From: a virus
IMG/VR virus record: IMGVR_UViG_3300050821_002366
Span: 1-47,587 of that record
DNA length: 47,587 bases
Direction: 5' to 3' (one strand)
Shown in pieces: positions 594-47,587 of the stretch; positions within the stretch are counted from its first letter, which is position 1; every line of letters begins with the position of its first letter. Position numbers and translations under genes: made by a program. The notes beneath the pieces were generated by a model that did no database searches, was not told the DNA's origin, and saw only the letters and a list, made by a program, of their open reading frames with translations.

Positions 594-965
594 CTAGATG
601 CGCACGAATACAGCATGGAAAGAAATCGTATCACCCGATACCGCCGCCGGAATTGCCGCTCCGTTGGTCAGTTCGGTGAGCGGTGATTGTGCCGCCGCTC
701 CGGTTAGGATTTGTATCGTATTTCCGGTCTTTTCCCATGCATACTGGTAACCTGAGCCGCCGAAGCTAATAAACTCGACCCAGATGGGAAGCTGCGACGT
801 GCTCTTGATGCCTTCAATCTTCCACGAAAGAGCTACGCCGCCCGTGGCATACGTTAGCGGAGACGCGCCGATTGCGACAGTTCCGTAGACGTGTTGCATC
901 CGCTGCGTATTGTCGTATCCATTTGGGTACGCGCTCGGAGTGATTGTTGCTGTAGTTCCTGCCAT
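594..965 (-). CDS. Small virion protein of unknown role
   Basis: A 123-residue protein starting MAGTTATITPSAYPNG, with a strong ribosome site (GAGGAGGG) before the ATG. It is rich in Ser, Thr, Gly and beta-branched residues, and its C-terminal half reads like a beta-sandwich (VSGDTISFHAVFVRI at the end). It lies between the exported fibre-like gene and the nozzle-like gene, transcribed with them. Position suggests a minor tail or head-tail protein. I recognise no family. Confidence 0.75.
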   Translation of the reverse strand: MAGTTATITPSAYPNGYDNTQRMQHVYGTVAIGASPLTYATGGVALSWKIEGIKSTSQLPIWVEFISFGGSGYQYAWEKTGNTIQILTGAAAQSPLTELTNGAAIPAAVSGDTISFHAVFVRI

Positions 966-7968: not shown

Positions 7969-9285
7969 CTAGATGGCCGGGATGGCCGCGTTCTGGATGA
8001 AGCTGCCCGCTCGCACGTTCGAGTTGGCCAGATTCATGCAAGAAACGTAGTAGAAAATGCTGGAAGTGAGGTAGCCGCCGCCAGCAATATCGGGTACAGG
8101 AGCTACTGTTACTCCACCACCAAAGTCATACAACTCCAGCGGCAGCATTTCGCCCAAGTACCAGGTCTCGGGAGCGAATAGGTCGAGACGGCCCGGCAGC
8201 GCGTTCCAGCCGACGTGCAAATCGTGCCCGCCGTAGGTGCGCGGGAAGAATTTGCTGGCCATGTCGAGCGAGTTCTCGCCCTTGATTTCCTGACGATTAG
8301 CGATGACGACGTTGTAGTACAGATTCTCAATCGCCGCCGCCTGGTCCGGCCCGGTGTACCAGATAGCGTCCTTGATGTACTCGCTTTCCTGCCCTAGAGC
8401 GCGACCCATCAGCGTAGTGCAGCGATGTGCTGTGCCCAAGGTAATTGCTCCGCCGTTCAGGTTTACGGTCGAAGTCGAGAGCCGTCCGGGAAAGGATGCG
8501 CGAGACAGGCCGTTGAGCGTTCCGGTATTCGAGTTGACCTGATAAGCCCGCAGGCCCATCAGAGACGAGCCCGCCGTTCCGGCAGCCCCGGCGATTACGA
8601 GCAAATCGGTGGTTGTAGTGCCCGAAGGCAATACGCCCGCCGAGTAGATCGTATTCGAGACGCCATCCACATAGCTGATCGTGAACGAGCCACGTAGAGT
8701 TCCGCCCGAACTGAATACCTGAATCACCTGCTGGTCCACGAACTGTACCGCTACGTTCAATCCTACGATTGAGCTGGTGGATTGACCGGAGCCGGTGCCG
8801 TTATTGACCGTGGCCGTAGTCGGAATGGTGTCGAAGGTTCCGGTTCCATCCGAGTTGAACAAGCCCTCCAAGCCTTGAGAGGCTTGCGTGAGCGAATTCT
8901 TGAGTTCCTGGGCCTGTACGTTGAAAAGCCCGCGCTTCTTGCCCTCGGTTGCGATGCGGGAAAGAAAGGTAATTTCGCAGCCGGAGTAGAAGAATACGGG
9001 CGAGAGCGCCATACCGGCCCACTGCGAGCCAGTACCGCGTCCGAGAGAGTCGCCATTTCCGGTACCCTGCGCAATCGGTGCGCCGCTCTGAATCCGCATC
9101 GGGACTCGGAACGATGGCCGTGTTACGCCTCCGGCAGCGGTTACGTTGGAGATGGGAATTACGGTGGCGCGTTTCTTGAAGAGGGCATACAGCGTGTCCC
9201 CTTCGTAAATCAAATCGGGGATGTCTTTTGCAAAGGCGTCGAGTTCAATGGCCTCGACAGCCGCTTCACTGAGCGGATTTGCCAT
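7969..9285 (-). CDS. Major capsid protein (HK97-fold type)
   Basis: A 438-residue protein starting MANPLSEAAVEAIELDAFAKD. It has the layout of an HK97-fold capsid protein: an N-terminal helical arm to about residue 45, a beta-rich E-loop-like region (RPSFRVPMRIQSGAPIAQG), a long helix around EGKKRGLFNVQAQELKNS, a Gly/Thr-rich insertion near residues 145-260, and a C-terminal domain with DLHVGWNALPGRLDLFAPETW. It lies between the scaffold gene and the co-chaperonin gene, the expected place. No N-terminal cleavage site is obvious. It is preceded by a 198-base leader without a gene. Assignment rests on size, pattern and position. Confidence 0.85.
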   Translation of the reverse strand: MANPLSEAAVEAIELDAFAKDIPDLIYEGDTLYALFKKRATVIPISNVTAAGGVTRPSFRVPMRIQSGAPIAQGTGNGDSLGRGTGSQWAGMALSPVFFYSGCEITFLSRIATEGKKRGLFNVQAQELKNSLTQASQGLEGLFNSDGTGTFDTIPTTATVNNGTGSGQSTSSIVGLNVAVQFVDQQVIQVFSSGGTLRGSFTISYVDGVSNTIYSAGVLPSGTTTTDLLVIAGAAGTAGSSLMGLRAYQVNSNTGTLNGLSRASFPGRLSTSTVNLNGGAITLGTAHRCTTLMGRALGQESEYIKDAIWYTGPDQAAAIENLYYNVVIANRQEIKGENSLDMASKFFPRTYGGHDLHVGWNALPGRLDLFAPETWYLGEMLPLELYDFGGGVTVAPVPDIAGGGYLTSSIFYYVSCMNLANSNVRAGSFIQNAAIPAI

Positions 9286-10711: not shown

Positions 10712-13225
10712 TTACTGTACGGGACCGCTTGGTGCTGGCTCGGGCGGCGGCGGTTGAATCTTAATGCCTGCCTGTCCGGCCATCTGAACTTGTCCATCGG
10801 GCGGCAAATCAGCGAAGTTGATGGACTCGCTGACCTTGGACTTGCTCTGACTCTGCGCTGCCGCTGCCTGCTGCTTTTGAATGATGGCGAAATGCTCCAT
10901 CGCGTGTAGCTTCACATTCTCGAAACTTTCTTTCTCTTCGGGCGTTCCGTTCTTCGTCTTGCGCCCGTCGGGAGAGTTAATCCATTCGGCTAGCGTGTCG
11001 TATTCCACTTGGTGATTATCGAATTGCTCGTCAATCGGCACCGTTGAAACCAGCTTGGGAATCTGGGCAATCGCCTGCTGCATCTGCTGCTTTGCCTGAG
11101 GCGGAATCTGCTCGCCACGAGCCTGAGCGCCTTGCAGCATCGAGGCTACTTTCTCGCCTATTTGCTGAAGCTGAGGATTAGGAATAGGTCCGGTCTTGAG
11201 CAGGATTTCGAGTTCGCCAAGCTGCTTGTCCACCGAATCGGTATCCGGCAAATCGAAGTCCGCAAAGCCTGTTCCGTCCTTGATGAGCTTCAAATTCTTG
11301 GGCAGCAAAGCCATTTTCTGTACGATAGGATTCTTCGCGGCGGCGTCCATGAACGTATTGAGTCGGGCGTTACGCTCGCCCTGAGATTCCGGGAATTGCG
11401 AGTCGGCTTCGGGGTAGCAAAGTACGTTACCTTTCAAATCGTCCAGCTCGACCATCACGCTATTCGCTTCGCCTACCGATTGCTTGACGTTGTTTTGTCT
11501 ACACCGCGCCGCGCACATCACCGCTTGCCGGTTCATCGAAGCATGGGCCGCTTGAATCGCGTGCCAGGCCGGGCCAAGCCTGCCTAACGCCTGGTCGCGC
11601 TGCGTATTAATTCCAGTAGCCGTGTCGTTGCCTTCGGTGTCACCGCCAGAAAGAGCCGGGTAAGCGCCAGAGAGTAGTTGCGAGAGTTCGCCGCAGAACT
11701 TGTCTATTGCCGAGGACATAGCTTCCGGGGCTTCGATGTCCGGGTCTTCGCCCATCAGCTCTTGAAACGGCACGCCGGGTTGGCGCGTGAACGGTACGAC
11801 CATCGCCGGAGAAGTTGGCAGGCTTTGAATCGCCGCGATATTGAACGACTGGTTATCCATGTACGTTCGCTTTACGCCTTTAACGAAGTACAGGTCGAGC
11901 AGGTCTACCCAGTTATTGACGCGCTTCTGAATCGGAATCATCCACGCGCCGAGCGGAGCGGAGTTCATGCCATCGGAAGGATTGGCCTTAGCTAGCGACC
12001 AGTGGTCATCCATGGATTCATTGCGAGCGAAGGCAAACTCTTTGCCCGCGAATACGACCAGAGCGCCGTCGGGAAACATCTGCATAAGCGTGTCCCGCAT
12101 CCCGTCGGTGTTCGGGCAGTCCATGAACGCTGCGGGCCTGAGCCACGTCTTGCTGACGGTTACGTCGTTCACCATGGCATCGCCAGTAACATACGAAGCG
12201 TTTAGCGCCAAGGCGCAATTGATTCTGGCAATGCGGTCTAGCTCGTTCTCTCCCGGTCCGCCGCCGGGCGCTATCTTGTCGGCAATCCACGGAAACATAG
12301 CCTTGACCTGCGATTGGTCGTGCTCTTTCGAGTAGTTCAGGAAGTGCCATTCGCATTGCTCTTTCGTATTCATTGGCACTTTAGTTTCTAGCTTGCCCGC
12401 GCAGATAGCTACCTCGCGGCCTTTAGGCGTCTTGCCCTCATTCGTGCTACTGCTGGAAGAAGAATCGTCTCGATTTGAATCTGAAAGTCCTTCAGGTTCT
12501 CCTTGAACGCTATCCAGTCCAGTTGGCTGAGGCGCTTGCCCTCCCTCTGCCTCTGGTCCTGCGCTGCCATCTGCTTGCGAAACAGGAGAAACCGTACCGC
12601 CTTCGACTTCATCTTCGGGCACGACGGCTTGCTCATCTTGCTCCTCCTCGAATCCGAAGCGCTGCGCATCCAAGACGTAATCCACCAGGATATGCGCTCT
12701 GCCGTCGTTATAGAGATACCGCGCCTCTTCGGTTTGTAGCAGAATCAAATCGTTGTTGCGGGCAAATACCTTCTTGAACTCTTCGGCTGCGTTTGCCGCC
12801 GTAATGTCCTTGTCGTTTTCCGGGTCTTCCGGCTCAAACTTAATCTTGGGCGTATCCCGCGTCAGCGCGGAAATTAGAATCTGTCCGGTAGGCGAATAGA
12901 TATTCGTTTCTAGGTTATCGAACGACTTGTTCTCGTTGCCCTTCTTCTCTTGCGGCAGCATCCAGCCGCCCGAAGGCCTCCTGAGCAAGTGCTGATAGCC
13001 TCTATCGAATAGCCTAGCTTGCCACGCCTGCGTTACCTCGAAACGGCGCGAGGCCATATCGCGTTGCGAGGCTTTCTGCACCAAGTCGCGCAAAGCTCCT
13101 ATCTGCGTATCTTCGAGGTCGTCGGACTTGAAGGTTTGTTCGGGGGAAAATGCCCACGGAGCGTAAAGGCCAAGCGGTGCGTCTAGCTTCTCGTCGCCCT
13201 GCTGGGTAGAGTTATTTTCGGCCAT
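10712..13225 (-). CDS. Portal protein
   Basis: An 837-residue protein; start chosen at ATG 13225 (MAENNSTQQGDEKLDAPLG) because the open frame upstream overlaps the 53-residue gene. It fits the large portal class of short-tailed phages. The N-terminal half has QAWQARLFDRGYQHLLRRPSGGW and NLETNIYSPTGQILISALTR. A stem/clip region includes the DLYFVKGVKRTYMDNQSFNI segment, and there is a characteristic GGDTEGNDTATGINTQRDQA motif before a helix with two Ala/Met/Gln-rich turns. The C-terminal third is Gln/Ala-rich and helical, like a barrel or crown. An acidic Ser-rich insertion lies near residues 220-270. It stands between terminase and scaffold as expected. Its last and first bases abut neighbouring genes. 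Confidence 0.85.
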   Translation of the reverse strand: MAENNSTQQGDEKLDAPLGLYAPWAFSPEQTFKSDDLEDTQIGALRDLVQKASQRDMASRRFEVTQAWQARLFDRGYQHLLRRPSGGWMLPQEKKGNENKSFDNLETNIYSPTGQILISALTRDTPKIKFEPEDPENDKDITAANAAEEFKKVFARNNDLILLQTEEARYLYNDGRAHILVDYVLDAQRFGFEEEQDEQAVVPEDEVEGGTVSPVSQADGSAGPEAEGGQAPQPTGLDSVQGEPEGLSDSNRDDSSSSSSTNEGKTPKGREVAICAGKLETKVPMNTKEQCEWHFLNYSKEHDQSQVKAMFPWIADKIAPGGGPGENELDRIARINCALALNASYVTGDAMVNDVTVSKTWLRPAAFMDCPNTDGMRDTLMQMFPDGALVVFAGKEFAFARNESMDDHWSLAKANPSDGMNSAPLGAWMIPIQKRVNNWVDLLDLYFVKGVKRTYMDNQSFNIAAIQSLPTSPAMVVPFTRQPGVPFQELMGEDPDIEAPEAMSSAIDKFCGELSQLLSGAYPALSGGDTEGNDTATGINTQRDQALGRLGPAWHAIQAAHASMNRQAVMCAARCRQNNVKQSVGEANSVMVELDDLKGNVLCYPEADSQFPESQGERNARLNTFMDAAAKNPIVQKMALLPKNLKLIKDGTGFADFDLPDTDSVDKQLGELEILLKTGPIPNPQLQQIGEKVASMLQGAQARGEQIPPQAKQQMQQAIAQIPKLVSTVPIDEQFDNHQVEYDTLAEWINSPDGRKTKNGTPEEKESFENVKLHAMEHFAIIQKQQAAAAQSQSKSKVSESINFADLPPDGQVQMAGQAGIKIQPPPPEPAPSGPVQ

Positions 13226-13373
13226 GACGCTTTGCAGATACCTCTGAGAACTTCGGGAGCGTCTTGTAATCCGTTGCGCCCTCCCACTCTTTGACTGCCG
13301 CCGGGCCACCCAAGGCTTTCATACCTTCCTTAGTATGGCCCCAAGCGTTCTGCGCCTTCGAGACGAACGGCAT
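13212..13373 (-). CDS. Short basic protein upstream of portal
   Basis: A 53-residue protein starting MPFVSKAQNAWGHTKEGMKA and ending HGRK with a TAA stop inside the portal start region. Its ATG immediately follows the stop of the zinc-ribbon gene (TAAATG), so it is coupled at both ends. Short proteins beginning MPFVSKAQ...WGHT...G..ALGG recur near portal genes of environmental phages. The function is unknown. Confidence 0.7.
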   Translation of the reverse strand: MPFVSKAQNAWGHTKEGMKALGGPAAVKEWEGATDYKTLPKFSEVSAKRHGRK

Positions 13374-13563: not shown

Positions 13564-14163
13564 TTACACCTCGCTCAGAGTTGCGGTGCCGTGCGCTCCG
13601 GTAACGTACCAGATGCCGCCGTGCGCTTGCAGCGTGATGGCATCACCAATCGCCGCAAAGGTCACCGTATCGAACGCGCTGTTGATCGTATTCGCCGGAG
13701 TCGTCAGCGTATGCGCGTGAGCCGTGATGCAGGATACCTCAATTTCCATGCCATCGTCGCCCGTACCTTCGCCGCCCGATACCGGAGCCACCAGAGTTGC
13801 CGCCGTAGCCGAAGCGCCGCCAATTGTGATAAGCCCAGGCTGCTTGATGACTGCGCCAGCCGCCGTAATGGTCTGGAAGTTTCCTCCGGAAGCCGAGGCA
13901 TCGTTAAGCGCCGTAACCCAAACGCTATTCAGGATGTCGAATACGAATACCTGGGCCGAGACCGCGCCAGCCGCCTGAGCCGGTTGCACGAAGCCGTATA
14001 CGTTCGTGAACGAAACGAGCCTCCCGCCGGTTGAATCCTGCTGGAAAATCAGTACGATTTCCTGCCCGTCGGTATTTCCATTCGTCAGCGTAAAGGCCGT
14101 GGTTGCCGCCGACAGGACCGTGCGAATCGAAGGCTGCCCGCTCGTGGAAAGAATCGTTGCCAT
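13564..14163 (-). CDS. Virion surface or decoration-like beta protein
   Basis: A 199-residue protein starting MATILSTSGQPSIRTVL. It is almost entirely beta-prone and rich in Ala, Thr, Gly and Val, without cysteine-rich or enzyme motifs. The phrase 'IVLIFQQDSTGG' in its first quarter resembles '[12 protein letters not shown]' in the exported fibre-like protein at 36803-39040, so the two may share a small beta domain found in tail or head fibres. GGGAGA precedes the ATG. Head decoration or head fibre is the best guess from its place before the portal. Confidence 0.6.
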   Translation of the reverse strand: MATILSTSGQPSIRTVLSAATTAFTLTNGNTDGQEIVLIFQQDSTGGRLVSFTNVYGFVQPAQAAGAVSAQVFVFDILNSVWVTALNDASASGGNFQTITAAGAVIKQPGLITIGGASATAATLVAPVSGGEGTGDDGMEIEVSCITAHAHTLTTPANTINSAFDTVTFAAIGDAITLQAHGGIWYVTGAHGTATLSEV

Positions 14164-14895: not shown

Positions 14896-15127
14896 AGAAT
14901 TTCTCCAAGGCTTGCTCGGTATTCATTTCCTGCGGGTCATAAATCATCTGCCTAACCACGTGGTCTTTGACTTGGGCAATCATACTGCACGTCCTAGCGA
15001 TTGGCGCTCCATCGTCGCCGTAGACCGGAAAGACTGAAACTCCCTCAATCTCGTACAACAGAGGCCCCTTATCTGGAGCCTCTATCCTTCTCTCAAGCTC
15101 TTCGATTTCATTCCACTTCACTCTCAT
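14876..15127 (-). CDS. Small protein coupled to large terminase, unknown
   Basis: An 83-residue protein starting MRVKWNEIEELERRIEAPDK, its ATG overlapping the TGA of the terminase (ATGA). It has an N-terminal helix, a central beta hairpin (LLYEIEGVSVFPVYGD) and a C-terminal helix. No recognised domain. Confidence 0.65.
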   Translation of the reverse strand: MRVKWNEIEELERRIEAPDKGPLLYEIEGVSVFPVYGDDGAPIARTCSMIAQVKDHVVRQMIYDPQEMNTEQALEKFCELSKV

Positions 15128-16650
15128 TCCTTAATCCTCGTTTCCCACAGCGGAACGTATTTAGGTACGAACGCCTCGCTCTCGCTTTGCAGATTGGCTT
15201 GTTGCTTCATCATGTAGAAATGCCGCGATACTTTGTCCTCGATTTGCTCCGCGTGCTCGCGTATCTCGATTTCGCGTGGCTTGCCCTTGGGATTGAGGTA
15301 CGAGAGCAGCCCGTAACGGAAGCCATCATACTCGTCATCCTCAACCGTGTTAGCCTTCATTACGTCTTCGAGGTCTTTGCCGTTCTTTCCTCCCCGCACG
15401 AGGCTTGGTATCGCCTGAATAATTCCTGGGCAAGTATCGAGGATGGCCAGTTCGTCGGAGTCGAAGAGGTTGTAGATGAGGGTAGCTCCGGCGACTCGAT
15501 CATCAGACGCTCTAGCCACAGGTGGAATAAGAACCTCGCTTTGGTTCGCTCGCAACGCTTTATTGAGCTGATCTGCTGGTGTGTTATTCGGGTCGGTGCG
15601 GTTGAACCGCTCAGGTGAGAAGAAGAAGTGCAGTATCTTGTCTGCTCCGTTTTCCCTGATAACTCCTTTGGCGAGGTCTTCATAGCTCATCTCCTTCGTG
15701 ACCCACTCGTGGTAGCAAACGACTTTGTTCTTGTACGTTCCGTCGAAGGCCGACTTAACAAGCGCTCGCGTGTACCAGTAGAACGCCGAATGATGTGCTA
15801 AACCCCAGTCGCCACCCATCCATTTTGGCTGCCAGCTTTGCCATTTGATTGCGTCAGGGTCTTTGCGTAAGTCTACGACGTGCCGCATGTGCGAGAAGTT
15901 CGTATAGTATTGGCCAGCCACGCTGTTGATGTCTCCGTAAAGCATCTTCTGGCGCAGCGCGGGGCTTAATCTATTTAGCCGGTTGATGTAGTCCGGGTCT
16001 TTCGCCATCAGGTGCGGATTGTCCAAAATCGTGGAGTGGTTGTAGAAATAGTTCTTAGACTCGTAGGTCCCTGACTTCTCAAGCTGCTCGACCGGCTTCT
16101 TGTCAATGAATAGCTTCTTGACCCAGCCCCAGCCTATGCCGTAAGGATTCGTGGCGAGAGCCATCGTCGGCGTAGGCCCAGAGACCTTGTTGCGGTTGCG
16201 AGCCGTCAGGAAGTCCCATATCTCGAAGGGAAACTCTCCGGCTTCATCTATGCCGATAAAGCTGAAACCAGCCGAGAGATACTGGTTTAGGTCTTTGACG
16301 TGAAGGTTCTCGCAATGCCCGAAGAACAGTTTGGATTTATTGAAGAACGTAGCAATGTGGTCCGAGGCGTTGTACTTGTAGAGTTCGGGCGGAACGCTGG
16401 CCAGGAAATCCTGAATCAGTCCTTTGTTGAGTTCGTTGAAGTCCTTGCGAAGTAATAGGACATGGCACCCAGGATAGAGGCAACAATAATAGACAGCTTC
16501 CCAAAGAAGAAACCAGGACTTGCCAGAACCAGCCCCACCCACAGCAGCACGATAAGGAGCAGGAGAAGTATGTAGCTCACGAATTTTAGGAGTAGGATAA
16601 TAGACTTTAGCAAGGTCGAGCCTCCCTTCGCTGTCAATGTAATCAGGCAT
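15124..16650 (-). CDS. terL: Terminase large subunit
   Basis: A 508-residue packaging motor: an ATPase that pushes DNA into the prohead, plus a nuclease that cuts it. Walker A is GGAGSGKS at residues 38-45. Walker B is FIGIDEAGEF at 131-140, with D135 and E136. A coupling motif ATNP lies near 166-169. The RNase H-like nuclease starts with D281 in MGGDWGLAH, and a late acidic pair is near 451-456 (DDEYDGF). The length is normal for TerL. The ATG lies inside the stop of the upstream 74-residue gene (8-base overlap). Confidence 0.95.
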   Translation of the reverse strand: MPDYIDSEGRLDLAKVYYPTPKIRELHTSPAPYRAAVGGAGSGKSWFLLWEAVYYCCLYPGCHVLLLRKDFNELNKGLIQDFLASVPPELYKYNASDHIATFFNKSKLFFGHCENLHVKDLNQYLSAGFSFIGIDEAGEFPFEIWDFLTARNRNKVSGPTPTMALATNPYGIGWGWVKKLFIDKKPVEQLEKSGTYESKNYFYNHSTILDNPHLMAKDPDYINRLNRLSPALRQKMLYGDINSVAGQYYTNFSHMRHVVDLRKDPDAIKWQSWQPKWMGGDWGLAHHSAFYWYTRALVKSAFDGTYKNKVVCYHEWVTKEMSYEDLAKGVIRENGADKILHFFFSPERFNRTDPNNTPADQLNKALRANQSEVLIPPVARASDDRVAGATLIYNLFDSDELAILDTCPGIIQAIPSLVRGGKNGKDLEDVMKANTVEDDEYDGFRYGLLSYLNPKGKPREIEIREHAEQIEDKVSRHFYMMKQQANLQSESEAFVPKYVPLWETRIKE

Positions 16651-33300: not shown

Positions 33301-33639
33301 CTATTGTGCTGCGATTGTCGCTGCCCCTGCCGTGATGGAAAACGAAGCCGGTAGAGTCTTGGTCACGCCCTGAAGCGTCAGCGTGGGCGAGGTTGTTGCG
33401 GGCGGAATCGAGACTACCCACGTCGGGGTAGTGCCTGTTCCTAGCGAGTAGGCTTCTCCGGTTCCATAGGTGCATTTGCTGAATTTTCCGACCGGGGGAG
33501 TTCCGCACATGGCAATAGTAACACTTGAGTCAACCGAGTAAACGAGTGCCCCGCCAGTGAAGTATCCGCCCGACGCTTGAGCGCCTAGAGCAATCGCCGC
33601 GAGCAGTACAACCATAAACGCTGTGCCAATGTATTTCAT
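33301..33639 (-). CDS. Small exported protein with signal peptide
   Basis: 112 residues from ATG 33639 (MKYIGTAFMVVLLAAIALGA) with AGGAGA upstream. A signal peptide precedes a mature start near QASGGYFTGG, much like the GGYFSG start of the giant protein at 1001-5251; both then carry a beta segment with cysteines. This suggests a duplicated N-terminal module. Likely a fibre-cluster component or surface protein. Confidence 0.7.
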   Translation of the reverse strand: MKYIGTAFMVVLLAAIALGAQASGGYFTGGALVYSVDSSVTIAMCGTPPVGKFSKCTYGTGEAYSLGTGTTPTWVVSIPPATTSPTLTLQGVTKTLPASFSITAGAATIAAQ

Positions 33640-33646
33640 AAGTCTC

Positions 33647-36028
33647 CTACCAGGGGAACCCTGGGGGTGTAGCAAATCCTTGCGTGGGACTGACAATCGG
33701 ATTGATTCCGTTACCCGTGAGGGTGATTACCAGTGGACTGCCGGTCGCGCTACTGGCAAAACTGAGTGTGGCTGGGAACGTGCCAACAGTCACCGGCGAG
33801 AAGGTAACCGCCGCGTTGCAGGATGCCGATGCCGCCAGAGTAGAAATGGCGTTGCAATCGGTTCCTGTAGAGGGCGTGACCTTGGCGTACAAGCTGGGAT
33901 TCGCGCCGCCGAGCGTGACGGCGACTCCGGTTAATCCCGTTGAGCCATTATTGGTGATGGTGACGAATTGCTGCGGAGATACCGTGCCGTCCACCACGTT
34001 GCCGAATGAGATCGAGGTTGCGCTTGTGCCGGTCTGCGAGACCCCTGTACCGGTGAGCGCCGAGGTCTGGGTGCCCGCGCTATCGGTCACCGTGAAAGTG
34101 GTAGATCGTGCGCCGATTCCCGTTGGCCCAAAGGTTACCGTGTAGGTGCAGCTTGAAGATGCCGAGAGAGTCGTAGAGCAAGTCCCGGCCCCGGTGTTGG
34201 TGAAGTCTCCGGTGTTCCCGCTTACGTTCGCCGCGCTGATTCCAGTTATTCCTGAGGCCGTGGTATTGGAGAGTGTGAAGGTTGCGGCTGCGCTGGTGTT
34301 GGTCAGCACCGTGGAAGGATAGGTATTGCCTGTGGGCGAGAGCGTGACCGAACCACCGCTGGTCTGAAAGAAATACGCGCCTTGGTCCCAAACTCCGCCA
34401 GTCGTCTGCCGCACATGCGAGGTTACCGCCGGACAGGTAATCGTTCCGGTCGTGTAAGAGCAGCCATTCGTGGTGCTGGCAGCAAAGGCAGGCCCGAAGT
34501 TGGCGACTTGGCTAGTCTCGTTCACGCCGGTGCCTACCGTGGCGTTGGATGATAGCGTGGGAGCGTAATCGTTTCCGGCAACGTACCCCTGAGCGTTCGC
34601 AACTGAAATCGTTTGGAACACGTCACCCGCGCAGCTTGTGACTCCGCCATTTACCGTCGTGACTTTGGCGTACACCGCAGAGCAGGTAGAGCCGTTGTTG
34701 GTGATGTAGTGATTGTTTGCGTCAGTGATGGCCCAACTCGAAGAGTTCCCGTTAGCCCAGACCGCTACGTTATTCTTCGACTCCCAAGTGTTGTTGAATA
34801 TCAGGGTAGTGGTAGCGAACGCCGGATTCTCAAAGTTGTTACAGTTCGCCGCGCAATTCACGTCGTGCCCCACGTTGTTGTAAACGTAATCAGTTAGGCC
34901 AGTAGTGTTCTCATTGAACCAGAAAATAGCCGATAGCGGCTGGCTAAAATCAGTGCCGATGAAACGCACCAAATTGTTGTAGAAGAAATTGTTCGACGGA
35001 TATTCTCCGATGCAGAACCACATATCGGAGTGGGTCGAGTTGGACTGGTCGTTATTGATATGCTCGAAAAGGTTGTCGTGGGCAATGTGGCAGTTGTCCA
35101 AAATCTGCGTCCCGCCAAGATTCCGCATCACGCTGTACTCCACGTCGTAGCCGTCCGCGTCTATTCCGTTCATCGAAAGCGGGTCGGAATCAGCGCCGTC
35201 AATAATCGTGTGGGTGATAAGCGTGCCCTGCTCAAGCTGGGTGTTGCCGAGCATCGCTTGGACATTGTTGCAGACGCCCGATGGCGTCGAGTTCCCGCAG
35301 GTCGAAGGCGTAAAGGCGGTATGCGTCCAGCCGTGAAAGTAGAGATTCGAGAATACGTGGAAGCTGGTTTTCTGCGAGTTTCCGCCAAAGTGTTTCAGGT
35401 ACGCGTGCTGATTGCTATTGTTCGGCGTGTCATTCCAGCACAGGCCGGTAAACTCGAAATTATCCAGCACCGTGTATTCGCTGCCCAGAAAGCCGAAGAA
35501 CCAGAAGTTCGTTCCCGCAGGGAAAGCGCAGCTTGCTACAATTCCCCCTGCCGTAACTGGGTTGTCTCCGTTCAGCACAGGTCTACCGAACGACGCTCCA
35601 GAGAACCACGTTGGGTCTACTCCGATATAAATTAGGTTAGTGGAATTTCCGGTGGTATTGAAGTTCCAGATTCCTCCGGTATATGGAGTCAGGGCGCTAT
35701 TGCCGACGTGCCACACATCGTTTCCGCGAACGATGATACCCTCGCCCGCAGTAATCGTGGTTGAGGCACAAACCCCAGAACAGTTCGGCATACCGGGAGC
35801 GTGCAGCCAAGGATGTCCCGACGCCTCGGATAGTCCATCATTTGAGTCCGAGCCATTAGAGGCGACGAAGAAGCAGCTTGTCACGCCGATAGCCGATAGA
35901 GGTCCGGGGGTGGCTGATGGAGTGCGGGAGTCGTAGCTTACCGAACTAGCCGGGCAGGTACCGCCAGCCGCCATAGCAGCAACGGGAGCCAGCAAGACGA
36001 GAAGCGCGAGATATAGAAATCGTTTCAT
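33647..36028 (-). CDS. Exported beta-helix protein with Hydin-like (choice-of-anchor D) repeats
   Basis: 793 residues from ATG 36028 (MKRFLYLALLVLLAPVAAMA) with AGGAC upstream. Signal peptide about 1-22. A right-handed beta-helix follows (about 60-480: GEGIIVRGNDVWHVGN; YTVLDNFEFTGLCWND; THTIIDGADSDPLSMNGIDA), as in tail spikes or polysaccharide lyases; a clear catalytic triad is not visible. Two ASPM/SPD-2/Hydin-type beta repeats (roughly 560-660 and 665-775; SISFGNVVDGTVSPQQFVTI) end the protein. These repeats are common in acidobacterial surface proteins, so capture from a host is likely. Roughly 20 cysteines. Confidence 0.75.
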   Translation of the reverse strand: MKRFLYLALLVLLAPVAAMAAGGTCPASSVSYDSRTPSATPGPLSAIGVTSCFFVASNGSDSNDGLSEASGHPWLHAPGMPNCSGVCASTTITAGEGIIVRGNDVWHVGNSALTPYTGGIWNFNTTGNSTNLIYIGVDPTWFSGASFGRPVLNGDNPVTAGGIVASCAFPAGTNFWFFGFLGSEYTVLDNFEFTGLCWNDTPNNSNQHAYLKHFGGNSQKTSFHVFSNLYFHGWTHTAFTPSTCGNSTPSGVCNNVQAMLGNTQLEQGTLITHTIIDGADSDPLSMNGIDADGYDVEYSVMRNLGGTQILDNCHIAHDNLFEHINNDQSNSTHSDMWFCIGEYPSNNFFYNNLVRFIGTDFSQPLSAIFWFNENTTGLTDYVYNNVGHDVNCAANCNNFENPAFATTTLIFNNTWESKNNVAVWANGNSSSWAITDANNHYITNNGSTCSAVYAKVTTVNGGVTSCAGDVFQTISVANAQGYVAGNDYAPTLSSNATVGTGVNETSQVANFGPAFAASTTNGCSYTTGTITCPAVTSHVRQTTGGVWDQGAYFFQTSGGSVTLSPTGNTYPSTVLTNTSAAATFTLSNTTASGITGISAANVSGNTGDFTNTGAGTCSTTLSASSSCTYTVTFGPTGIGARSTTFTVTDSAGTQTSALTGTGVSQTGTSATSISFGNVVDGTVSPQQFVTITNNGSTGLTGVAVTLGGANPSLYAKVTPSTGTDCNAISTLAASASCNAAVTFSPVTVGTFPATLSFASSATGSPLVITLTGNGINPIVSPTQGFATPPGFPW

Positions 36029-36035
36029 CGTAGTC

Positions 36036-36803
36036 CTAGTGAAACACGATTGCGTTAGCGCAGTAAGGCTGAGAATTGCTATTGGTCCATGTTGGAGCTG
36101 CGCCGTTAGTGGTATTAAGCAGAGTCGCGGAACCAAAAACAGCAGCTCCGATAAAATTCGTATAGGTCGTGATTCCCGAGGGAGTACCACCTTCAGGAGT
36201 AATCGCCTGGATAATTAAGCTATTTGGCCCTGCCAAGGTTAGCGGCCCTACTCCCGGCATACTGGTACCGCCAGCGGTATTCTGGAGTAACGTGGTTGAG
36301 GATGAATCTACAACTGGAGTTGAGCCTGAGTAGCTATATTCTTGAATACGCCCCTCGTTTGACACGGCCCCAGGCGAGGCGGAATTCCACGTAAAAGTAA
36401 GTGAGGTCTGACCACCTACTGATTTCGTGCAATAGGCATCACTCAAGGCCTGACCAGCTCCCTGACTCACTTGAACTGGCGTATAAACTACCCATGCGTT
36501 TTGACAGACACCGGCGGTTGGTAGAGTTGTGCCGGAAATAAAAACTCCTGCGTTGGCGATTCCCTTTATCACGATTAGGCTGCCAGAGGTCGTAGAAGTG
36601 ATGGTATTGGAACATGTTGCCGACGAACCAGTACACCCCGAAGTCGCCGTGTTTTGAAGTAGGGCTACGGTGCCCATGCCACTTGAAAGTGTGCCCCCAA
36701 TCGAGACCGGGCCTTTAATCGAGACCGGACCTTTGGCGGTTTCCTGAGCCGAGACGCCCAATGGAGCGAGAAGCAGGGCCAAGGTTAGGAGTAGAGACCT
36801 CAT
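36036..36803 (-). CDS. Exported protein of the fibre cluster
   Basis: 255 residues starting [20 protein letters not shown] (signal peptide ending VSAQ). The mature start holds a short repeat, KGPVSIKGPVSIGG, from a tandem DNA repeat near 36700-36735. The rest is a beta-rich Ser/Thr/Gly domain with paired Cys (GCTGSSATCS). The ATG overlaps the preceding stop (TAATG). Confidence 0.7.
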   Translation of the reverse strand: MRSLLLTLALLLAPLGVSAQETAKGPVSIKGPVSIGGTLSSGMGTVALLQNTATSGCTGSSATCSNTITSTTSGSLIVIKGIANAGVFISGTTLPTAGVCQNAWVVYTPVQVSQGAGQALSDAYCTKSVGGQTSLTFTWNSASPGAVSNEGRIQEYSYSGSTPVVDSSSTTLLQNTAGGTSMPGVGPLTLAGPNSLIIQAITPEGGTPSGITTYTNFIGAAVFGSATLLNTTNGAAPTWTNSNSQPYCANAIVFH

Positions 36804-39040
36804 TACTGTACAACCTCTAACTTGCAGGCGCTTCCTCGGCGAATATTGAGCGAGGCGGTTGTACCGCTTGTCGAAGCTGCGTTAATAATGAAGGTTGCTC
36901 CAGCAGTGGGCGAACCTTCAATCGTGCCCGAGATTTTGGCCCAATAATTTGTACTAGTGACTCCAGCGGCGCTACTGGTCACCAAGGTCTGAGAGCCAGT
37001 GGTAGTGTTGCTTAGGTAACCGTTTACATCCGCGCCAGCCAAAGTATTCTGCACCGAGGCCAATCCGGTGAGTTGGGTAGGAGCAGCGGAGATATTGAGT
37101 CCGAACACCGGGCCGACCAGCGTGGCGGCTGTCGATTCCCATAGTAGATCGCAGGTATAGCGATAGTTCTGGGCAACAGCGGTAGCGGGAAGGGTCCACG
37201 AGAATACGGTAGAGGGAGTGACTGTCGTGTTGGTGTAGTCCGCTCCGCTTATGGTCTGAATAGTGACGAGTCCGGCAGGCTGCCCAGGAATACAGCCCTT
37301 GTCCACGTTGTTATAGTTAATGTGGAAGCAGTGATTGGTGGAGTCGGCGGAGATTATATCCGTCGAGGCAAGACCTGTGGCGATTGTGCCCTCGCTCTCT
37401 CCGATTGCCCCGCCCGTACCTACGGTAAAGGATGGAGGCGAGGTGCCGATACCAGCGATGGGAGCAGTGACGCCGCCTGTTCCTGTGTATGCAAGAGTGG
37501 TGGCGTTGTCGCTTAGTAGAGAGTTTGTGGGGCAGACTCCAGCGCCGCCGCCCTTGGGTATCACGTTCGCAGTCAAAGCTGCGGTCATGGAAATTGCGGT
37601 GGTGCTAGTTGCGCAGACTACCCCACCAGAGGTTAGCCCGGAATTTATCTCAGTCAGCGCCAAACTCTTGTTGGTCAACGTCTGAGTGTCGGTGGTGCCG
37701 ACTATCGTTCCAGCAGGAGCGGCCACCGAAGAGGTTAGAGTGGTGGCGCTGCCCGCGATAGGAATCTGGCCGGTAGTTAGGCCGCTAATTCCGCTTGAAC
37801 CGGTTGAGGAAATCTGTGTCCCGAAGGCGCTGGGCGTGAGAGTGATGTTGGTCCCGGCTGTTAATAGCCCCGGCGAGCAAAGCGCGTTGTAATTTACGTT
37901 GTCGGGAGTTCCTACGTTGCACCAAGTTCCGAGAGGCAAAGGTATGCCCGTGGCTCCGGCCACTCCGTTTACCGTTGAGGTTGTGGCCTTGAGGGTGACG
38001 GTACCCGAGGATGTCCCTGAGTTCTCAACTAGCGTATAGGGACTATTTCCAATAGACGCAGCCGATGGCAGTGTGGCATTAATCGCGCTGGCGCTTGTCA
38101 GTTGGACTACCTTGCCCCGCATATCGGAAGTCACTAATGGATAAGAGGTCGTCTGATTGTTGAACGTCTGCGAAGGCACAATCTCAGCGCAGATGCCGGA
38201 ATTGTTGACGCCGAAGTAGTCTCCAGCGACAAGGCCGTTGGGAGTGCATTGCAGGAAGTTCGTTCCGCCGCCCGTCGGAGCGCCCAAGTCGGTAACCGTG
38301 ACGTGGCTGGAAGTGACGCCGAATCCAGCGATGTCTCCGTTGGTGGGCACTGTGGCGATTCCTAGGTTAATCAGGTCGGCCAACCCGTTCCAGAAGTGTA
38401 CGTTGTTCAGCGCGGAGTCTACGCCGTAGTTATTCGTGGAAGAGCTGGTAAATCCTCCCGATGAAGGCAATTCCAAAAGAGCCGATGAGGTCAGATTTAG
38501 TGAAGGACTAGTGCCGAAAACCACAGCGCCCGTACCTGTTTCGTCGGTGACTGCCGAGGCCAGATTCGCACTCGATGGGGTGGCCAGGAAACTTCCAACT
38601 CCAGTGCCTAGTCCACCTATCTGCGAGATGGTGTAATCATTAGTTGTAGCTACCACCGCTCCGGTGCGCCCAAAAACGGAAGAAACCGCTCCGCCACCTC
38701 CGCTGCCTGAATTCGTGCCATACCAGGTATTAGACAGGGAATTGAAAACAAATCCTAGCGTGGTTGTAGCGCTGGCCGAGGTCGAGACCGTTCCCGCGCC
38801 GCTGATATTGCCGCCAAACGCGACCGAATGGCCCGTAGAGTCTTGCGTGAAAATCACACTGATTTGCTGTCCGGGAAGAGGGTTTATGATACTGACGCTG
38901 TTGATTTGCGCCGTGACGGGAACGAAGAAAGAGTTGTTGTTCTGCGATACGTCAAGCGTTACCGCTCCAGCGACGATGGGCACCTGCTTTTGCGCGAAGC
39001 AGGGATAAGCAAAGAGCAAAAGCAGTAGAAGTTTTCTCAA
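36803..39040 (-). CDS. Exported tail-fibre-like protein
   Basis: 745 residues from TTG 39040, GGAGA upstream, TTGA overlap. Signal peptide [17 protein letters not shown]. Fibre-type sequence follows: [20 protein letters not shown], then [20 protein letters not shown], phrases common in phage tail fibres. A phrase [12 protein letters not shown] resembles one in the 199-residue gene at 13564-14163. The C-terminal 130 residues look like a separate beta domain. Tail fibre is the likely role; the export signal is odd. Confidence 0.8.
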
Positions 39041-39411
39041 CTGAGTTCTCCCGTTAGCGTAATCGAGGTACCCGTGAAGGTAGCGACGCTAATCTGATAG
39101 ACCAAGCCCGGCTCCAAATCTTTTATCTGCACGATGGGCGCGGCATGAACGTCAATCGAAGTATCCGCCGTCGAGTAGGCATTGAAGGTGCCGCCAGTCC
39201 CTGAAATCGAGGCCTTGAGCGTAATGGTGCAAACGCTGAATGCGCCCGAGGCGACGAGCGTCAGGATTCTCGCTTGACTGTTGAGCGCGGGCTGAATCGT
39301 GAAGAAATAGCTGCCCGTTGTGCCCGTTCCGGTCGCGGCATTGACAAGCGTGGTCGGCCCGTAACCGGGAGCCAAGAGCGCGGGTTGAAGCTGTGTCGGT
39401 AGTTGGGGCAT
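39037..39411 (-). CDS. Small beta-rich protein before the fibre cluster
   Basis: 124 residues starting [26 protein letters not shown] upstream. Beta-prone throughout ([40 protein letters not shown]). Possibly a tail or fibre attachment protein. No signal peptide, unlike its downstream neighbours. Confidence 0.6.
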
Positions 39412-43706: not shown

Positions 43707-46700
43707 TCAGACACCTCTCACCGGGAACATGACGTTCTGGCGCATCATCATCACCATTTCGCTCATCTCGAAAAACTCGCCTACTGCGTTCGTAGAGAAC
43801 TGCATGAATAGCCGGTTGCACTCTTCGTTGAGCGGGATTTCTCTATCGAACGTAGCCGTAGCCTGCAACTGAATCGGGAAAAGAGCTTCAGCGAACGGGC
43901 TGGTGATGCTGTTTGGCAAAGCCGTAATCAGCAGATTACCATTGCCCGTGACGTTCATGGTCATGTAGGCGTAGAGCTTTTGCACGTTGCCCATCTGTAG
44001 CGCTTGCTCGGTATCGGGCTTGGTGAAAGCGTAAGTCGTATACACCATGTTAATCGGTGAGCCGTCATCGTTCGCTAGGCCATCAATCAATTGGTAAATC
44101 TTTCCGGTACCCATCGAATTTCCCAGCATCACCGGCGTAGTTGTATCTTGGCGCTGGATGAAGTCCGCGTAAGGCGCTTGAATCTGCCAGATGGTCCACT
44201 TGCGCGACATATCGAGAGCAATCAGCTTTCCGGTAAAGCTCGAAGCTCGGATCGTCTGCCGCTCGATTAAGTCCGATACCGTGTTGACTTCTTTGTAGCT
44301 CATCGCCAGAACGACGTTGGGCGTCTGCGGATTTGAATTGGCCGGAGCGTTGGGCAAGAACTGATTCGGAGTCGGCAGCGGTACGCCAACCAGAATCCTC
44401 TTGTTTACGATGTCGTTGCGCACCCATAGCGAGTATCCGAATTTCCAGTTAATGAGATTCCAGAGCGTGCGGATATCCCCCGAAAGGGGTACAGGCTCTC
44501 CGCCGTTGAAGATATAGAGTCCTGACTTTCCGGCAATTAGTGCGTAATCTTCGCCCGCCTCTCCGCCGTCTACGTAGTCCACGCCATTGATTGAGGGCGT
44601 ACCGATAAAGTCCGAAACCGTGCGCTGATTCCACTGCGCGGGTTCAAGCGAAGGATTGTCATTGGTGGAAATAAAAGAACCCGTCTTGACCACGTAGAGC
44701 GTATCGAACAGCGTGAAACAAGCCCTGACCGCTTGTTGGTTGGTAATCGAAGCGTCGAAGTTTCCGCTAATTTGGTCGAACGACTCAAAATCTCCCGCGT
44801 AAGAGCCGGCTAGCGCCGTAGTCAGGATTGGCTCGACGGTAGGGAACACGTCGAATCCGTCTAATTCAAAATCTACGAGCGTAGCAGGCACGTTCGTCGC
44901 GGCGACGAAAAGTTGCAGGTCCGCAGGCACGGTGACAAACGGAGTCGTCAGCATCGGCCCCGAGAATATCTGCATATTCGTGCTCATCGTGTTGATGGCG
45001 ATAGCGAGCGAGCCATAAAACTTGTTGAATCCGGGACTGTAAAGGCCAATCTGGAAAGTTCCGCCTGCAATACCCGAGGGATTCCGCACCGTACAGCGCA
45101 CCGAATAGAGCGTGTTCGGTAGAATAATAGGAACATTGTAAAAGTCCTGAAATGCGGGCTGCATGATAAAGCCCATCGTCGCTTGCGGCGAGCCTGTAGA
45201 GTTTTGCACGTAGTAAGAATTTCCAAATACGGGCGAGACGTTGAGCGTGCCGAGATACGGGCCTTGGTTCGTCGGATGCGTCCAACCGAGCGGCACAAGA
45301 TGAGTTCCTAGAGGGTTAAGGAATCCGCCATCGAACGTAGGATTGAGAAATTGAGTAATCTTGTTTAGCTCGCCCCAGTGAAACATGCGATTCGCGTAAG
45401 CGATATTTCCGAGAGACGGGCCAAGTTCTTTCAACTCAAACAGGTTGAATCCTTGCACGTCAATCGCTTGTCCTGCGAGTAATACGGCATCGGTGATCGT
45501 CAGCGTCACTTGCGTTGTCGTGTTGTCGTTCACCCAAGTAGACGAATAGGTAGTAGAGACTCCATTGTTGACTATCGTAGTCGGAAACTCTTGGGTGAAG
45601 AAATTAGCTCCGTTCGCTCCCGTAAAGGCTAGTCCTCGCGCTACGACGTTCGGCGGTCCTATCGGCAGATTGGTCACAACGATGGCGTTCGCGCTGGCCG
45701 TAAGAGTAAACGTCACCGGCGTTGAAGGCGCGGTCAGATAGCCCGAAGCGGTGACGAAGAATACGACACATTCTCGGCTTCCCGCGCCGAGCAATCCGGC
45801 AACCGATAGAGTCCCGCCGCCGGAGTTTCCGAATATCGGGCTAGTTGCCGAACCGACGAGAGCAGGCGCAGGGTCGAATTGAAACTCCGTCCCGTTGATA
45901 ATCGCTTGCCCCGCTTCCGCCGCCGAGGCAATGTTCGGAGAGAGCAAATTAACCGTAAACGTCGTGCCCGTTGCGGCAAGAATCGTCGCGTTGTTGACAT
46001 TGAATATCCCGTTGCCGTTGTCGGTCAAGGTAACGGTAACTTGCTCGCCCGCCGCCGGTAGCGCTCCCGTAATAAGCGTGAAGTTGTACGTCGCCACGTT
46101 GGCGGTGAGACTCGTAGCAGTTATGGCAAGCTGCGCGGCGTTCGGGGTGAAAAGCACATTCCAGCTTTGATTCCAAGCGGTAACACCCGCTCCGGCTATC
46201 GCAATCTGCGAGCCTACCTGTACGTTCGGTACCGGAATAGTGGTGAAGACGCTCGCAAGCGTTGCCTGATAAGCCGAACCGCCCGCTGGGGGAAACTGCT
46301 CGGCCAGTTCGACCGAAAGTGCGGTCACCGTAAACGTATTGAAGATTATCCCGCCGTGTCCCGGAGTCGTGCCTACCGAGTTGACGATATACGTTCCGTT
46401 CGGGCTTTGCCCTGAAACGCTCCCGAACCCGGACAGGAATACGCCGTTTCCTACGACGATATTGGGGTCAGGAGTTGTCGGACCTCCGCCATAGTAAATC
46501 GTGATGACGTTTCCTGCGACCGAGTTGTTACCGGGGCCGATACTCCACAAAAGAGCGGTAATCGCGGTTACGGGAGCGTTCTGCGTAATGCCGTTGGGCG
46601 AAGCGACTATAGGGTAAGTTGTAGACGTGAAGCCTACCGACGGTGGCGCTCCGGGGCCTACCTGAGAAGTGCGATTCAGCGTCGTTCCGTTCCACTGCCT

Positions 46701-47587
46701 CGGGATGTCTTGCCCGGCGATGAGATTCGAGAAATCTATATACTCCACGTCATCGAAAGTCGTGCTTTTCGCATAAATCGAGAGCAGCCCGGTAAACACG
46801 CTCGATAGCACACCCGGATTGTTCGTTACGTCCTCGTCCCAGAGCACGCCGTTGGAATCTACCGCGAGAGTCGAGACCTGCCCATCTCGTTGGGCATACG
46901 TCTTGAACCAAGTGAAATTCTGGCTACCCGATGCTAGAAAAATAGTGCAGTCCACGAAGTCCACGAACTCTTCGGCTGTTCCTGACGTATATTGAATCGC
47001 CACGCCGAAGCCGGGGCTATTTAAGTCCGCAAACGTTAGCGTCGTCCCCCACATATCGGTTTGCGATCCGAGCAGGACGCGAGAATCCGTGTTAATCGGT
47101 AGCGGGCAGCCTTTTACAACTCCTACGGGCACGCCATTCTTCAAAAGCTGAACGGTCATCGTCGGAAAATTCGCGCCAGTGAAGTGCCCCGTAACTCCGA
47201 TTTCAATTCCGATGATGGGCTGCGAAGGAAGGCTAAATCCAAAACCTTTGGCCTCAAGATAATCGGAGAGAGAGAGCGTATAGAAAACGACAATTTGGAC
47301 GTTATTGACGTTGACCGTCGTTGCGCCTGCGGGAGTCGAGCGAACGACTTGAATCGTAGCCCCAAACGAAGGGTCGTTGACGATTGCAGGAGAAAGCATG
47401 GCCCCAAGCGTGTTGTTGTTTGCGCCTACGGTGAATAGCCCCGGCGTGTTTGTCAGCGAAGCCGTGATCGCTCCGCTTCCAATCTGGCTGCCCGAAGAGG
47501 CAAGAGAAATTGTCACCGCCGTTGCCGAGGCGCTATCGAAGGCCGTAATCGTGACCGTTACGCCGACGATATTTGCGGCAGAAGGTA
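43707..47587 (-). CDS. Large virion protein, main part (tail nozzle/stabilisation-like); N-terminus at 1..585
   Basis: This is the bulk of the 1455-residue protein that starts at 585 across the circle. The long middle is beta-rich (Thr/Val/Gly/Asn). The C-terminal 400 residues hold TLYVVKTGSFISTNDNPSLE, then DYVDGGEAGEDYALIAGKSG followed by LYIFNGGEPVPLSGDI, repeated blade-like units. That form fits beta-propeller nozzle or stabilisation proteins (T7 gp12 / P22 gp10 class). It precedes the FN3 and GNAT genes, in the T7-like order. The apparent GTG at 47516 is an internal codon. Confidence 0.75.
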   Translation of the reverse strand, partial: PSAANIVGVTVTITAFDSASATAVTISLASSGSQIGSGAITASLTNTPGLFTVGANNNTLGAMLSPAIVNDPSFGATIQVVRSTPAGATTVNVNNVQIVVFYTLSLSDYLEAKGFGFSLPSQPIIGIEIGVTGHFTGANFPTMTVQLLKNGVPVGVVKGCPLPINTDSRVLLGSQTDMWGTTLTFADLNSPGFGVAIQYTSGTAEEFVDFVDCTIFLASGSQNFTWFKTYAQRDGQVSTLAVDSNGVLWDEDVTNNPGVLSSVFTGLLSIYAKSTTFDDVEYIDFSNLIAGQDIPRQWNGTTLNRTSQVGPGAPPSVGFTSTTYPIVASPNGITQNAPVTAITALLWSIGPGNNSVAGNVITIYYGGGPTTPDPNIVVGNGVFLSGFGSVSGQSPNGTYIVNSVGTTPGHGGIIFNTFTVTALSVELAEQFPPAGGSAYQATLASVFTTIPVPNVQVGSQIAIAGAGVTAWNQSWNVLFTPNAAQLAITATSLTANVATYNFTLITGALPAAGEQVTVTLTDNGNGIFNVNNATILAATGTTFTVNLLSPNIASAAEAGQAIINGTEFQFDPAPALVGSATSPIFGNSGGGTLSVAGLLGAGSRECVVFFVTASGYLTAPSTPVTFTLTASANAIVVTNLPIGPPNVVARGLAFTGANGANFFTQEFPTTIVNNGVSTTYSSTWVNDNTTTQVTLTITDAVLLAGQAIDVQGFNLFELKELGPSLGNIAYANRMFHWGELNKITQFLNPTFDGGFLNPLGTHLVPLGWTHPTNQGPYLGTLNVSPVFGNSYYVQNSTGSPQATMGFIMQPAFQDFYNVPIILPNTLYSVRCTVRNPSGIAGGTFQIGLYSPGFNKFYGSLAIAINTMSTNMQIFSGPMLTTPFVTVPADLQLFVAATNVPATLVDFELDGFDVFPTVEPILTTALAGSYAGDFESFDQISGNFDASITNQQAVRACFTLFDTLYVVKTGSFISTNDNPSLEPAQWNQRTVSDFIGTPSINGVDYVDGGEAGEDYALIAGKSGLYIFNGGEPVPLSGDIRTLWNLINWKFGYSLWVRNDIVNKRILVGVPLPTPNQFLPNAPANSNPQTPNVVLAMSYKEVNTVSDLIERQTIRASSFTGKLIALDMSRKWTIWQIQAPYADFIQRQDTTTPVMLGNSMGTGKIYQLIDGLANDDGSPINMVYTTYAFTKPDTEQALQMGNVQKLYAYMTMNVTGNGNLLITALPNSITSPFAEALFPIQLQATATFDREIPLNEECNRLFMQFSTNAVGEFFEMSEMVMMMRQNVMFPVRGV
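47490..47587. repeat. Terminal direct repeat, right copy
   Basis: Identical to 1-98 over all 98 bases; see the left copy. It lies inside the large virion gene. Confidence 0.95.

Follow-up and report, generated by a model that had tools for sequence, protein, structure and literature searches.

Five proteins encoded in the virion module of the virus record IMGVR_UViG_3300050821_002366 are likely adhesion fibres or spikes that are made as Sec/SPI precursors and join the particle outside the cytoplasm. The whole record of 47,587 nt was analysed and is referred to as the window; it features a 98-bp terminal repeat and is, hence, a complete circular virus genome. According to textbooks, the fibres of tailed phages fold in the cytoplasm and are attached there, and signal-bearing fibres contradict this view; new in kind would be the attachment outside the cytoplasm. 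If true, this points to an unstudied assembly route—with regard to the time and place at which particles acquire exported fibres, the formation of trimers in the periplasm, and the reason for which certain hosts favour it—and would explain the cysteine richness of these fibres.

The genome appears podovirus-like since tape-measure and sheath genes are absent. The virion genes lie on the minus strand in the order terminase, portal-type, scaffold-type, capsid, adaptors, and fibre slot 1, which holds the 1416-aa gene. Slot 1 is followed by a 123-aa gene, a large gene of the 1269-aa type, a number of structural genes that are conserved, and a 124-aa gene. Next comes fibre slot 2, where genes of 745, 255, 793, and 112 aa stand in a row, and behind it lies a small gene that encodes a membrane segment. 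Apart from the terminase, all genes were named from their order and conservation. The landmarks of the module are:

15124..16650, minus strand: terminase large subunit (phrog_2, E 2.6e-36)
13564..14163, minus strand: 199-aa head-module protein without a signal peptide; has a domain in common with the 745-aa protein, where it directly follows the signal peptide
10712..13309, minus strand: putative portal-type protein, assigned by order; homologue in G183 contig 37 (E 1e-93)
7969..9285, minus strand: major capsid protein, by position and conservation; the query that opened the phage family
5245..6051, minus strand: conserved adaptor-type protein g5245, which marks slot 1; syntenic homologues in Terriglobia genomes
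594..965, minus strand: g594, conserved small virion-module protein of 123 aa beside slot 1, without a signal peptide; homologues of relatives at the same place
43707..47516, minus strand: g43707, large structural protein by conservation, 1269 aa as listed, frame open to the record end
39037..39411, minus strand: g39037, 124-aa protein without a signal peptide just upstream of the slot-2 cassette, conserved in the relative L212 (37%); candidate attachment hub

By synteny with relatives, the five proteins occupy both fibre slots, in agreement with the virion-module location proposed by an earlier, sequence-only reading, whose coordinates and lengths for the five genes—all on the minus strand—are correct:

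1001..5251, minus strand: 1416-aa fibre/tailspike-type protein (g1001) in slot 1, between g5245 and g594; signal at residues 1–21; 34 Cys
5189..5251, minus strand: signal peptide of the 1416-aa protein, MVRRGLLLLAVFFAATLPAFA↓Q, by n/h/c-region and A-X-A rule (↓, cleavage site)
4841..5188, minus strand: mature N-terminal domain of the 1416-aa protein with the cysteine pair VC...PC; matches predicted phage tailspike structures
36803..39040, minus strand: 745-aa tail-fibre protein, TTG start; signal at residues 1–16 (39040-38993); 11 Cys
36036..36803, minus strand: 255-aa protein; signal at residues 1–19; 5 Cys
33647..36028, minus strand: 793-aa parallel-beta-helix-like protein with C-terminal ASPM-SPD-2-Hydin/Cep192-type domains; signal at residues 1–20; 20 Cys
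33301..33639, minus strand: 112-aa protein; signal at residues 1–22; 2 Cys

Signal peptides were called by our own rule: a basic n-region, a hydrophobic h-region of at least seven residues, and small residues at −3 and −1. The controls were ten known signals and five cytoplasmic proteins, and since one known secreted control, PhoA, was missed, the rule is conservative. All five proteins are called SPI, with the sites FA↓QGG, FA↓QKQ, SA↓QET, MA↓AGG, and QA↓SGG, three of the five having Gln at +1. Of the 63 called genes of the window, only three others reach the same threshold, two of them lipoproteins and the third a probable membrane protein. When N-termini are shuffled, 0.4% (other genes) to 1.7% (these five) still pass, which puts four signal genes in a row far beyond chance. 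The starts are preceded by ribosome-binding-like sites—GTAGGAGACTT-ATG and CACTAGGACTACG-ATG for two genes and AGAGG, GGGAG, and GGAGG for the other three—and support for the TTG start of the 745-aa gene comes from the relative L212:10056, whose signal peptide and CFA↓Q site are the same and whose start is ATG. The Sec signals noticed by the earlier reading are, by this rule, well formed on all five proteins. The cysteine richness it reported for three of the proteins holds as well, with 34, 20, and 11 residues in the three largest: Cys makes up 1.5–2.5% of the five proteins, whereas the large structural proteins of the window, among them those of the capsid, portal, and scaffold type, have 0–0.9% and small adaptors reach 2%.

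The assignment as fibre type is supported by the explicit tail-fibre phrase of ten residues (VFGRTGAV type) in the 745-aa protein, by an N-domain common with fibres, and by predicted structure, and covers the proteins other than those of 255 and 112 aa. PHROGs and Pfam gave almost no direct matches for the five proteins. The predicted N-domain of the 1416-aa protein (pLDDT 66, pTM 0.60) matches predicted phage tailspike-type structures with a best E of 2e-5 and a TM of 0.62, and nothing was found below E 0.05 in a fold search of the PDB. The AlphaFold model of the 255-aa protein, made without an alignment, is uninformative (pLDDT 31). Ordinary tailed-phage fibres have an N-terminus free of a signal, whereas signal peptides are found on all five of these proteins. 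As far as can be judged by sequence, they work like fibres yet are not ordinary members of the tail-fibre class.

The phage family was opened by the capsid query alone: scans for close relatives with the 745-aa, terminase, 1416-aa, and portal proteins returned none; in the phage collection, tblastn found no match to the 1416-aa and portal proteins and, with the 745-aa protein, nothing beyond the VFGRTGAV phrase; and an alignment scan that started from the N-domain returned G026 only. The closest relative found is this same G026, with a capsid 73% identical; its g43707-like protein shows 54% identity, and those of G029, G030, and G033 show 43–44%. G026 features five consecutive signal-bearing genes directly after the orthologues of g40622, g39421, and g39037, so that the search of related phages that the sequence-only reading had proposed finds the same feature at the same slot. 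The 625-aa protein of G026 (L212:10056-11933) aligns with the 745-aa protein across the signal and the first 100 residues at 49%, with CFA↓Q kept; an alignment at 48% links its 610-aa protein to the N-terminus of the 1416-aa protein; and an 843-aa signal-peptide protein weakly matches the 793-aa protein.

Two signal peptides compared with their L212 counterparts have a pN of 0.16 and 0.24—the latter that of the 1416-aa protein—at a pS of 0.65 and 0.75, respectively, with a pN below that of the following domains, on few codons and with pS near saturation. On these comparisons, the signal peptides are a recurrent feature kept by selection. The same values bear on the explanation that the genes are relics captured from secreted host adhesins, whose signals play no role. 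Domains common to secreted proteins of Acidobacteriota would fit such a capture, but the conservation of the signals and their recurrence in unrelated tailed phages (see below) disfavour it, a cysteine covaries with the signal, and this origin is extremely improbable.

This cysteine is found by comparison with the more distant relatives G029, G030, and G033, which carry the homologous fibre N-domain at these slots without a signal, starting with MPLFRRDF or similar. Their fibres (520, 1099, and 211 aa, respectively) have the same N-domain, slots, capsid, and 1269-aa-type proteins as the window—the N-domain copies of G029 and G030 match the 610-aa protein of G026 at E 2e-6 to 5e-4—but lack the signal peptide and the second cysteine, and one of them has collagen repeats. 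The second cysteine of the N-domain (VC...PC) is present in nine of nine signal-bearing and none of four signal-less sequences, with a Fisher p of 0.0014 that is not a strict probability since the sequences are related. A cysteine seen only alongside an export signal would be expected if a disulfide is formed outside the cytoplasm.

The host of this soil phage is very probably an acidobacterium, presumably of the class Terriglobia (Acidobacteriota). Capsid homologues occur in 54 of 399 Terriglobia genomes, and eight of the loci examined combine capsid, g5245-like, g1001-like, and g43707-like genes. The N-terminal or central part of g1001 is found in seven of these eight, at up to E 1e-60, and the N-domains of the homologues follow signals ending in A↓QGSR or A↓QSSR, with the start codons of G097, G077, and G167 provisional. 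Clusters of portal, capsid, adaptor, signal-bearing fibre, and 1269-aa-type genes are seen in G183 C37, G119 C14, G167 C46, G077 C21, G114 C3, G038 C2, and G097 C1 (L240-L259); their proteins are alike between genomes, and other genes are interspersed. The cluster may be a common provirus or a domesticated element resembling a gene-transfer agent.

Chromosomes of Acidobacteriaceae (L126, L131, L134, L144, L145) encode a giant VFGRTGAV protein whose N-terminus is hydrophobic and, after it, a secreted beta-helix protein (YYVDCNYGSNGNPGT). This pair was considered as a prophage cassette and rejected, since the flanking genes look cellular, and it is, hence, counted only as a host relative.

Such secreted host proteins outside prophages would agree with an explanation in which the five proteins are not part of the virion but secreted or surface proteins—morons that alter the cell surface, mask receptors, or act on the surroundings. 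The 112-aa protein and the beta-helix-like protein of 793 aa in particular could be true secreted proteins. There are precedents: Lom, encoded among the tail genes of lambda, is an outer-membrane protein with a signal peptide (PMC12309495), and genes with Q-rule signals in Nixviridae prophages of Porphyromonas gingivalis—the nearest report found—were read as modifiers of the host outer membrane (PMC10367356). Morons of the Lom/Bor type are, like the window proteins, signal-peptide proteins of a tailed phage, in the case of Lom near tail genes, but they are single small outer-membrane proteins and not runs of large fibre-domain proteins. The Porphyromonas genes likewise are phage genes adapted to the Sec/SPI pathway of the host with Gln at +1, but their function is unassigned and interpreted as outer-membrane modification rather than as fibres. 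Against a moron role, both fibre slots are filled by the five proteins, and neither the window nor G026 shows a further large fibre-like gene. The N-domain is the same as in the signal-less fibres at the same slot, ten signal-bearing fibre-type proteins are recorded in Cellulophaga phage particles, and Pfam gives no match to a small outer-membrane beta-barrel of the Lom type, the five proteins being mostly large and of the fibre type. Taken together, a moron role is unlikely.

Unrelated phages, too, have fibres with signals. When viral contigs were scanned for the VFGRTGAV-type fibre phrase, at least 119 stretches were obtained, and among the matches listed, about 12 of 100 ORFs with a complete 5' end carry convincing signal peptides, as counted by eye from the table with L019 added and L035, L079, L113, L008, L093, L108, and L043 discounted. 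Several of these genes stand in runs of two or three signal-bearing genes. The median Cys content of VFGRTGAV fibres among the matches listed is 1.36% with a signal (n=14, including the window protein and one doubtful member) and 0.07% without (n=65), with p 1e-5, and p 1e-3 when restricted to GC >= 0.5. L043, entered as signal-positive in this comparison, seems rather to be another tail protein with a membrane segment. Where wider flanks were considered, the signal-bearing fibres occupy the position that is usual for fibres. In G009, a tailed phage of the HK97 type (head protein phrog_4523, E 5e-189), they stand directly after the tail-tip genes. In the myovirus G011, they come after the baseplate wedge gene (phrog_6, E 4e-51), and the signal-bearing protein of 1437 aa is itself similar to tail-fibre families, at E 8e-31. 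In a MAG of Acidobacteria, an integrated prophage encodes a tape measure and a J-like protein, after which come a 410-aa gene and three genes with signals. An isolate of Lacibacter cauensis (Bacteroidota; L166, G019 C4 ~477869-480757) has an apparent integrated element with a 962-aa signal-bearing VFGRTGAV protein, whose gene is adjoined by a second signal-bearing gene.

GenBank records of cultured marine Cellulophaga phages flag the proteins that were identified in particles by MS/MS. Ten flagged fibre-type proteins start with signal peptides, nearly all with Gln at +1: gp085-087 of phi18:3 (KC821620), gp091-094 of phi10:1 (KC821618), gp25-26 of phi39:1 (KC821626; the signal of gp25 called by eye), and gp08 of phiSM (KC821616). 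These flags do not distinguish cleaved from uncleaved protein, do not give N-termini, and could also register a co-purified secreted protein. Like the window, these phages feature consecutive fibre or pectate-lyase-type genes with A/S/G↓Q signals in the virion module, in several tailed-phage families; they differ in the host phylum, in having few cysteines, in lacking detectable orthology to the five window proteins, and in that the signals go unmentioned in the records. These records give the firmest backing for a virion location, which by analogy would be expected of the five proteins in the present phage. PhiSM gp09 is 63% identical over 1081 aa to the MS-verified gp024 of phi13:1, with the homology beginning at residue 23 of gp09, just past the signal; where gp09 has the signal, gp024 has an anchor of 168 residues made of Mtd_N and collagen. 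The N-termini of signal and linker are 83–95% identical between phages of different families, while the bodies differ.

The signal on fibres is common but not universal, since it is absent from the MS-verified proteins examined of phi40:1 and the crAss-like phi14:2 and from the fibres of phi13:1/phiST. The premise of the sequence-only reading, according to which tailed-phage fibres carry no such signal, is too broad and fails for many phages of Acidobacteriota and Bacteroidota. Signal peptides were absent from phage hypervariable proteins in a survey (PMC6199706), and no statement of signal peptides on tailed-phage fibres was found in the open-access literature.

N-termini left unstated in the MS/MS records would also accommodate a hydrophobic N-terminus that stays uncleaved, either as an inner-membrane tether until lysis or as a plug that attaches the fibre to the particle. 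The A-X-A sites and the Gln at +1 are, however, conserved in the nine of nine signal-bearing N-domains compared, and a complete fibre N-domain, used elsewhere without a signal, directly follows the site. In a small sample of Acidobacteriota contigs (L192-L211), Gln is also the commonest residue at +1 of predicted signal peptidase sites (9 of 28). An uncleaved N-terminus is quite improbable. The Q-rule, Gln at +1 of most SPI substrates, has been described as specific to Bacteroidetes.

For the preferred export route, the fibre precursors would be threaded through the SecYEG of the host, and the leader would be cut off by signal peptidase at A↓Q, A↓A, or A↓S. The exported fibres would fold outside the cytoplasm, where the conserved cysteine pair and the other cysteines could oxidise. 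Attachment of the mature fibres to the particle would come next, again outside the cytoplasm, and the simplest occasion for it is lysis, which would bring particles and the exported pool together; the first exported protein may dock via its ordinary fibre N-domain, and the others may build on it. Export, cleavage, disulfide formation, and attachment at lysis are all steps suggested by the features above, and to our knowledge no mechanism is known that brings exported fibres to particles. In filamentous phages, the virion adhesin is exported by Sec before it joins the particle. Their coat proteins resemble the proposed route in that Sec export precedes entry into the particle, but these phages are non-lytic, have ssDNA, are extruded and assembled in the membrane, and have no tail.

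The sequence-only reading had left two alternatives, passage of the fibres through the periplasm with later attachment or display on the infected cell. The former is the better supported because of the signal-less relatives with the same domain at the slots, the conservation of both bodies and signals, and the MS/MS records of Cellulophaga phages; surface display is less so. Some tailed phages, thus, probably finish fibre assembly outside the cytoplasm. With somewhat more confidence than doubt, this can be extended to a class of tailed phages with varied tail types, spread over two or more bacterial phyla, whose receptor-binding apparatus would be built outside the cytoplasm—by Sec export, trimming by host signal peptidase, periplasmic oxidation, and addition to otherwise complete particles at or after lysis—and in which the swap of anchor and signal on the same fibre body would let phages and secreted host adhesins exchange fibres. 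The annotation of environmental phage fibres would change, as such proteins are now liable to be dismissed as host contamination or labelled as morons, and such fibres may, for a simple reason, fail when expressed in the cytoplasm of E. coli.

Outside the fibre slots, the protein encoded at 30133-29648 features a Big_2 Ig-like domain and matches phage structural and major tail protein families. Two lipoprotein-type genes, likewise outside the fibre cassette, are located at 17709-17356 (MKNLFLVSVLALGALGG↓CC) and 30812-30300 (MTRLAPAVAVLLCASLIG↓CN) and may encode spanin or surface lipoproteins.
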